Assembly (NCBI GenBank): GCA_902617025.1
Contig: CACMVB010000002.1
Coordinates: 124,001-188,000 of the forward strand
Source: an uncultured Pelagibacteraceae bacterium
GTDB lineage: Bacteria; Pseudomonadota; Alphaproteobacteria; Pelagibacterales; Pelagibacteraceae
Direction: 5' to 3'
Length of the DNA: 64,000 nucleotides
A program made the translations under genes and the position numbers. The notes beneath the pieces are model-generated. The model ran no database searches. It was not told where the DNA came from and saw nothing but the letters and a program-made list of their open reading frames with translations. How positions within the stretch are numbered: the first letter of the stretch is position 1; each line of letters opens with the position of its first letter. Positions 42,004 to 42,532 of the stretch are shown one piece after another.

Positions 42004-42031
42004 CTTGAAAAAATAAAAGTAATCCCCATAT
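42004..42031 (+). promoter_or_regulatory. RpoH (sigma-32)-like promoter of hsp20
   Basis: CTTGAAA - 13 nt - CCCCATAT upstream of a small heat-shock gene. Confidence 0.8.
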
Positions 42032-42037
42032 CTTATT

Positions 42038-42084
42038 TGTCGGTTGCCAAGTGGGGCTGACATCAACCTTGCTAACAAAGGAGG
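42038..42084 (+). promoter_or_regulatory. ROSE-like RNA thermometer in hsp20 5' UTR
   Basis: Hairpin TGTCGGTT...GGCTGACA, then CUUGCU opposite AGGAGG giving the UUGCU/AGGAG pairing with G-G mismatch over the SD. Confidence 0.72.
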
Positions 42085-42088
42085 ACAT

Positions 42089-42532
42089 ATGACAAGTAAG
42101 GATCTATCGATCTTTAATTCACTTAGACCTTTTAGCATTGGATTCGACGACATGTTTGATCAATTCGAATCTATGTTAGGGAATGGTAGTCTTGGTGTAC
42201 AAACCAATTATCCACCATACAACATCCGAAAGGCAGGCAAAGATAAGTATGCTATTGAAGTAGCGGTTGCTGGCTTTAACAAAGATGATGTTGAAGTTGA
42301 ATATGAAGATAATCTTTTAACTGTAAAAACAAAAGACGTTAAAAGAACTGAAGAAAAAGAAGGAGATGAAGTTATTCATAGAGGAATATCACAAAGATCT
42401 TTTGCTAGATCATTTACAATTGCAGATGATGTAAAAGTGAATGGTGCTGAGCTTAAAGATGGTTTACTAACTATTTCTTGTGAAAAAATTATCCCTGAAA
42501 TTAAGAAAAAAAGACTTATTGAAATTAAATAA
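42089..42532 (+). CDS. Small heat-shock protein Hsp20/IbpA family
   Basis: YAIEVAVAGFNKDDVEVEYEDNLLTV, GISQRSFARSFTIADDVKV; SD AGGAGG 5 nt before the ATG. Confidence 0.94.
   Translation: MTSKDLSIFNSLRPFSIGFDDMFDQFESMLGNGSLGVQTNYPPYNIRKAGKDKYAIEVAVAGFNKDDVEVEYEDNLLTVKTKDVKRTEEKEGDEVIHRGISQRSFARSFTIADDVKVNGAELKDGLLTISCEKIIPEIKKKRLIEIK

Follow-up and report, generated by a model that had tools for sequence, protein, structure and literature searches.

Short ROSE elements are known from Pseudomonas ibpA (Krajewski et al., 2013; PMC3669281): the leader there consists of two hairpins, is transcribed from sigma-32 and functions in vivo as well as in vitro. In E. coli, IbpA represses itself through its own 5' UTR, and binding needs residue R93 (PMC10474464). 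Two ROSE families, ROSE_2 and ROSE_3, are drawn by Rfam as two hairpins. Among phage genes, translation of lambda cIII is controlled by RNA structure, in a case that involves neither ROSE nor hsp20. The SPbeta prophage carries a fourU element before blyA, which is also a thermometer on a phage gene but differs from the phage hsp20 leaders described below in motif class and genes, being neither ROSE nor linked to hsp20 (PMC10586365). We found no published ROSE element on a phage hsp20 in the open-access PMC literature, and Meyer et al. (2009; PMC2704228), who studied structured RNAs in Pelagibacter, make no mention of heat-shock genes. Here, we describe an hsp20 gene of a SAR11 bacterium that has a promoter box and a leader of two hairpins, both supported by covariation, the second pairing with the Shine-Dalgarno (SD) sequence; in SAR11 this RNA is tied exclusively to hsp20, and it recurs in phages.

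A sigma-32-type promoter ahead of the single hsp20 gene

The window, by which we mean the whole 64,000-nucleotide stretch analyzed, comes from a 1.04-Mb Pelagibacteraceae (SAR11) assembly; positions below refer to it, and all features lie on its forward strand. A Pfam search of this genome returned one PF00011 (Hsp20) gene, at 42089-42532, which starts with the ATG at 42089 and encodes an IbpA-like small heat shock protein of 147 aa (Pfam HSP20, 71.4 bits; PHROG 432, Hsp20) whose relatives by protein search belong to uncultured Pelagibacteraceae and Candidatus Pelagibacter. The letters and coordinates given for promoter, hairpin arms and SD in a preliminary description of the locus proved correct when we re-read the sequence. 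A -35 element, CTTGAAA (42004-42010), is separated by 13 nt from a -10 element, CCCCATAT (42024-42031). This succession of CTTGAAA, spacer and CCCCATNT at the expected distance is sigma-32 (RpoH)-like, and RpoH is encoded in the genome (360.7 bits, above the family cut-off). Among 113 distinct leaders of the family, TTGAA is present in 109, the full CTTGAAA in 97 and the composite TTGAA-N14-18-CCN..T in 89. Across the 1.04 Mb, the pattern CTTGAA-N14-17-CCATNT has seven matches, against three for a reversed control, and two of the seven precede hsp20 and groES; the same box lies 35 nt upstream of groES-groEL. The RpoH-like promoter proposed earlier is thereby upheld, and the assignment of a sigma-32 promoter upstream of hsp20 is well founded, the start site being predicted from the consensus.

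Within the coding region, codons 4-9 (42098-42115) could form a 7-bp hairpin, AAGGAUC/GAUCUUU, of which one genus (g2) has a compensatory version, AAGGACA/UGUCUUU, and which is absent from other genera. Conservation at third positions is unusually high in codons 1-12 (0.945 versus 0.787). We rejected the hairpin at 42098-42115 as a part of the thermometer: it is kept near this genus and lost in other genera.

Covariation supports a 5' hairpin with a bulged G

Leaders were collected at 80 public Pelagibacter loci and at a further 60 loci elsewhere in the order, and covariation of hairpin I was counted in 66 non-redundant leaders. Hairpin I (42038-42062) pairs TGTCGGTT (42038-42045) with GGCTGACA (42055-42062) in its lower stem; above it, a bulged G46 (bases are numbered by the last two digits of their position) is followed by the apical pairs C47-G54 and C48-G53 around a loop at 49-52. 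Of the two hairpins first proposed, this one is thus real in its stem but extends higher than had been drawn. Standard pairs occupy 99.2% of cells in the 66 leaders, and both sides have changed in seven of nine pairs, which none of 500 shuffles reaches; when the partner is slid, pairing falls to 55% or less. The alignment of related leaders, suggested at the outset as a check for compensatory changes, thus came out in favor of the stem. RNAalifold predicted hairpin I unprompted, and its covariation points to a stable 5' hairpin ahead of the one that contains the SD. The bulged G and its neighbors (Y-G below, C-G above) persist across leaders.

An inverted repeat adjoining a promoter has the usual shape of an operator, and 5' hairpins stabilize mRNAs, a role proposed for the one of Pseudomonas ibpA (PMC3669281); both would suit a reading of hairpin I as a DNA operator or a mere stabilizer of the mRNA 5' end, with hairpin II incidental. 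However, the arms co-vary across the family and so present no fixed operator, G-U pairs are common in the stem, the apical YGCC/GGG with its bulged G is conserved, and the RNA stays constant, with a nearly invariant UYGCU, behind upstream promoters that differ. We consider this explanation improbable and, on covariation, rejected both the DNA operator and the pure stabilizer.

Folding of the single sequence gives a z-score of -0.61 for the whole leader and -2.4 for hairpin I; the signal of more-than-chance structure is weak from one sequence alone but emerges clearly by comparison. A covariance model trained on SAR11 leaders only (R1) matches the whole leader at 42035-42091 (76 bits, E 1.1e-16; the sequence is itself in the training set), and this is its only match genome-wide at E up to 10.

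A bulged-G helix predicted to cover the Shine-Dalgarno sequence

Downstream of hairpin I, the window reads CTTGCT (42068-42073), AACAA and AGGAGG (42079-42084), and in the covariance model the anti-SD arm of hairpin II, CCUUGCU (42067-42073, with a bulged G71), pairs with the SD arm AGGAGG (42079-42084). The U(U/C)GCU at 42069-42073, imperfectly paired with the SD at 42079-42083, faces the SD in 116 of 117 Pelagibacteraceae leaders from 12 genera; the bulged G is invariant, and the loop varies from 5 to 9 nt while UYGCU stays. UUGCU had initially been drawn opposite the SD with a G-G mismatch. The pairing itself holds, but a register with bulged G71 (C67-G84, C68-G83, U69-A82, U70-G81, C72-G80, U73-A79) fits the relatives better, because 37 of 111 distinct relatives carry a C at the second position of UYGCU, and a C pairs with the G of this register, not with the A of the mismatch register.

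Little covariation is seen in hairpin II within SAR11 because the SD cannot vary freely. Phage relatives show it in the pair immediately flanking UYGCU/AGGA, which may be C-G, U-G, A-U or U-A and is intact in all 67 distinct cases (0 of 2000 shuffles). RNAalifold did not predict hairpin II on alignment A1, since MAFFT had placed ACCUUGCUA a single base out of step with ACUUGCUUA, and this hairpin was counted by motif-anchored alignment. Among distinct ATG-started ORFs, the motif precedes all 60 SD-bearing SAR11 hsp20 ORFs and 2 of 345 others. Taken together, the covariation of hairpin I, the near-constant UYGCU and the covariation of the SD helix support the architecture of a ROSE-type, SD-sequestering leader, as originally put forward.

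By nearest-neighbor folding at 37°C, the bulged-G71 register in the window reaches -2.4 kcal/mol versus -2.9 kcal/mol for a competing CCUU/AAGG pairing. From 5 to 45°C, the unpaired fraction of the SD in the window moves from 0.50 to 0.45, nearly flat with temperature, so that this method gives no thermometer-like opening curve for the window over that range; mean SD opening over the same range goes from 0.22 to 0.32 in SAR11 and from 0.10 to 0.27 in viral leaders. In our reading, nearest-neighbor rules are poor for such bulged, non-canonical helices. The habitat of SAR11 is of fairly constant temperature, so that a pure heat sensor would be less obviously useful there.

Relation to known ROSE elements

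With hits allowed up to E 10, the window matched none of the Rfam ROSE models (RF01832, RF02523 and others), while E. coli ibpA, the positive control, scored 100 bits. The Rfam scan proposed in the preliminary description was thus negative, and the SAR11 leader is ROSE-like in its architecture without scoring as an Rfam member. It precedes a Pfam HSP20 gene, a position that suggests control of a small heat shock gene. ROSE_3 (RF02523) and ROSE_2 (RF01832), neither of which matches the window at that threshold, share with it a hairpin I with a bulged G near the loop, in ROSE_3 within an AUGCC..GGGU motif, and a hairpin II in which CUCG-CU..AGGAG contains a bulged G. With the Pseudomonas ibpA element it has in common two hairpins, sigma-32, a stable hairpin I and, in hairpin II, a U(U/C)GCU that faces the SD; it differs in being AT-rich, about 10 nt shorter than the 61-62 nt Pseudomonas leader (PMC3669281) and too diverged in sequence for the Rfam models. 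Since the two-hairpin, sigma-32 kind of ROSE is proven in Pseudomonas, the SAR11 element is a new relative of a known kind.

The two-hairpin form had been ascribed to genome streamlining. This finds no support: Pseudomonas, ROSE_2 and ROSE_3 also have two hairpins, whereas an equally small sister family has three, and the short form is therefore no simple result of small genome size. In that sister family of the order (L235-L248, L250), the three-hairpin hsp20 leaders carry UCGCU, their middle hairpin has a bulged G, and an Rfam scan of them found no ROSE match.

R1 and ROSE_3 match the same stretch before the hsp20 gene of the Methylophilales phage Melnitz-3, the former at E 2.4e-7 in 27 kb and the latter at 34.1 bits (E 0.0012), which is sub-threshold against a cut-off of 43. 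On these matches, the Melnitz-3 leader is a bridge between SAR11 leaders and ROSE_3, whose consensus has the same AUGCC..GGGU and CUCGCU..AGGAG motifs. Run over 289 alphaproteobacterial genomes, R1 matched SAR11 and three others, two of them directly before hsp20-like genes. These two non-SAR11 alphaproteobacteria (L466 and L464) carry a two-hairpin ROSE-like leader that R1 found without the protein. We rejected the match in L467 as a relative; it is a terminator-like hairpin.

The same leader precedes phage hsp20 genes

Hsp20 matches occur in 509 phage records of the collection searched and are widespread in marine T4-like phages. Applied to 81 sources, namely E. coli ibpA and 80 hsp20 loci on viral contigs, R1 matched 65 at E up to 1, with the stronger viral matches at E 1e-6 to 1e-3 and E. 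coli ibpA unmatched. Four protein scans yielded 256 viral hsp20 loci with upstream DNA of sufficient length, 243 of which have UYGCY before the SD; the other 13 include the variant AACUGUCU. Among distinct ATG-started ORFs the motif lies on 127 of 139 viral hsp20 genes versus 3 of 690 other viral genes, and a bulged-G hairpin I, its stem showing all Watson-Crick pair types, was parsed in 115 of 129 viral leaders versus 2.4% of shuffles, all counts being of related phage sequences and not of independent events. An AT-rich leader with a strong SD might pair by chance, as the modest z-score of the whole leader would allow, but against these frequencies, and those for SAR11 hsp20, we hold chance pairing to be close to negligible.

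Both hairpins are present, by reading and not by a scored model, in all 18 phage isolates examined, which comprise cyano-, pelagi-, methylo-, Agrobacterium and Pseudomonas phages: HTVC008M, Mosig, HTVC115P, HTVC103P, Melnitz-3, S-SSM4, P-SSM4, syn9, S-ShM2, P-HM2, S-SSM6a, S-CAM9, S-CRM01, S-RSM4, ACG-2014f, S-CREM2, Agrobacterium phage Atu_ph07 and Pseudomonas phage Callisto. R1 alone, with default filters, found the leader in 12 of the 18 and misplaced hairpin I in HTVC008M and Mosig. A T4-late-like TAAATA lies just before hairpin I in 30 of 32 cyanophage-type and 35 of 46 pelagiphage-type leaders (background 2.7%), and TATAAT or TATACT occurs in 31 of 37 HTVC103P-type leaders (background 3.9%); judging from these consensus matches, the phage leaders probably stand behind phage-type promoters, T4-late-like or TATAAT-like.

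Some annotations near these leaders deserve comment. The annotated hsp20 start of S-SSM4 (L258, 1528) is 48 nt downstream of an in-frame ATG that follows the SD and looks misplaced, as does that of P-HM2 (L474, 211), where the ORF reads through the RNA leader. In HTVC008M, a tRNA gene (L254:661-731) lies upstream of a 30S S21-like gene near hsp20.

An orphan gene and variant leaders

In a pattern scan, hsp20 was downstream of the first phage form in 117 of 117 cases and of the second in 93 of 114; the remainder of the second form is mostly an orphan phage protein of about 70 aa behind the same RNA, and R1 matches in 12 of 15 orphan-gene contigs. The protein (about 70-83 aa, MLLYANMAIDAIQSSKTSW...) is seen, for instance, in IMG/VR loci L604, L618, L627, L642, L678, L697, L702 and L715. 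Family searches returned nothing beyond a sub-threshold Phasin_2 match (E 0.013); PHROG holds essentially no relative of it, and INPHARED none. Several orphan-gene loci have a terminator-like T run after hairpin I.

A variant leader has UUAACUGUCUAA..AGGAGGUUAA instead of UYGCU (L134, L136, L138, L161, L162, L357-L364 and the bacterial L234); this leader lacks the bulged-G motif but remains able to cover the SD. The hsp20 at L234 belongs to a SAR11 assembly, carries this viral-type variant and may be phage-derived.

Conserved residues point to possible self-repression by Hsp20

The residues aligned to Y34, R93 and R97 of E. coli IbpA are kept in the Hsp20 of the window. The R93 equivalent is R in SAR11 and in all but one (Callisto, which has K) of 16 aligned phage Hsp20s, and R by motif in 105 of 112 distinct viral Hsp20s, so that the IbpA-type arginine is found in SAR11 and most phage Hsp20s; E. 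coli IbpB, which does not self-repress, has Q at this position. The K98 equivalent is not conserved in SAR11 and phage Hsp20s. The likeness to self-repressing E. coli IbpA thus lies in the gene family, the ROSE-type leader and the conserved R93, and the difference in K98, with the SAR11 and phage side read from sequence (PMC10474464).

These residues bear on a reading in which the leader is chiefly protein-sensed, Hsp20 oligomers blocking translation until titrated by aggregates, with temperature acting indirectly. The essential role of R93 in E. coli (PMC10474464) and its retention here speak for it, as do the invariant bulged G of hairpin I, which SD sequestration does not need, and the presence of the leader under phage-type promoters, where temperature is no obvious signal; binding of Hsp20 to the leader would explain both the constrained bulged G and the retention by phages. 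On the other hand, K98, needed in E. coli, is not kept, R93, being part of a conserved fold motif, may owe its retention to something else, and some phage copies precede a non-Hsp20 gene. We regard such a chiefly protein-sensed leader as a serious candidate whose chances fall somewhat short of even. Protein autoregulation is, in our analysis, also a live second mechanism compatible with heat release. Of the thermometer first proposed, the SD-sequestering leader stands, while self-binding by Hsp20, the distribution in phages and the bulged G in both hairpins had been overlooked.

Discussion

We consider it quite probable that hsp20 in this genome is expressed as a sigma-32-driven mRNA with an SD-hiding, two-hairpin leader that is released by heat and probably also bound by Hsp20. 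Transcription from a sigma-32-type promoter would give the hsp20 mRNA a leader of some 50 nt, counted from the predicted start site. Hairpin I, with its bulged G, would fold stably at the 5' end, and in hairpin II CCUUGCU would pair with the SD AGGAGG through a weak bulged-G helix, keeping ribosomes off hsp20 until this helix opens, most likely by heat as in ROSE thermometers. The leader would probably also serve as a binding site for Hsp20, which would repress its own translation until denatured protein draws it away, as in E. coli IbpA. SD sequestration with heat release appears to be the most economical model.

For the phages, we lean slightly toward the view that the ROSE-type switch is a widespread mobile cassette, retained on the hsp20 genes of diverse phages. 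No longer coupled to the heat-shock sigma factor, it would stand behind phage-type promoters, would also control a second, orphan gene, and would respond to temperature, to the phage Hsp20 or to both. If so, phage chaperone synthesis would follow the protein-folding load. Control of phage Hsp20 appears undescribed in the open-access literature.

SAR11 is among the most abundant marine cell lineages and has few known regulators, and the leader adds a transcription-plus-translation control point for its single Hsp20. Phage and SAR11 leaders provide hundreds of natural variants with which to ask whether ROSE senses heat, IbpA or both. If the phage copies are thermometers or chaperone-load sensors, they would couple protein folding in phages to the temperature of the ocean or to the stress of infection.
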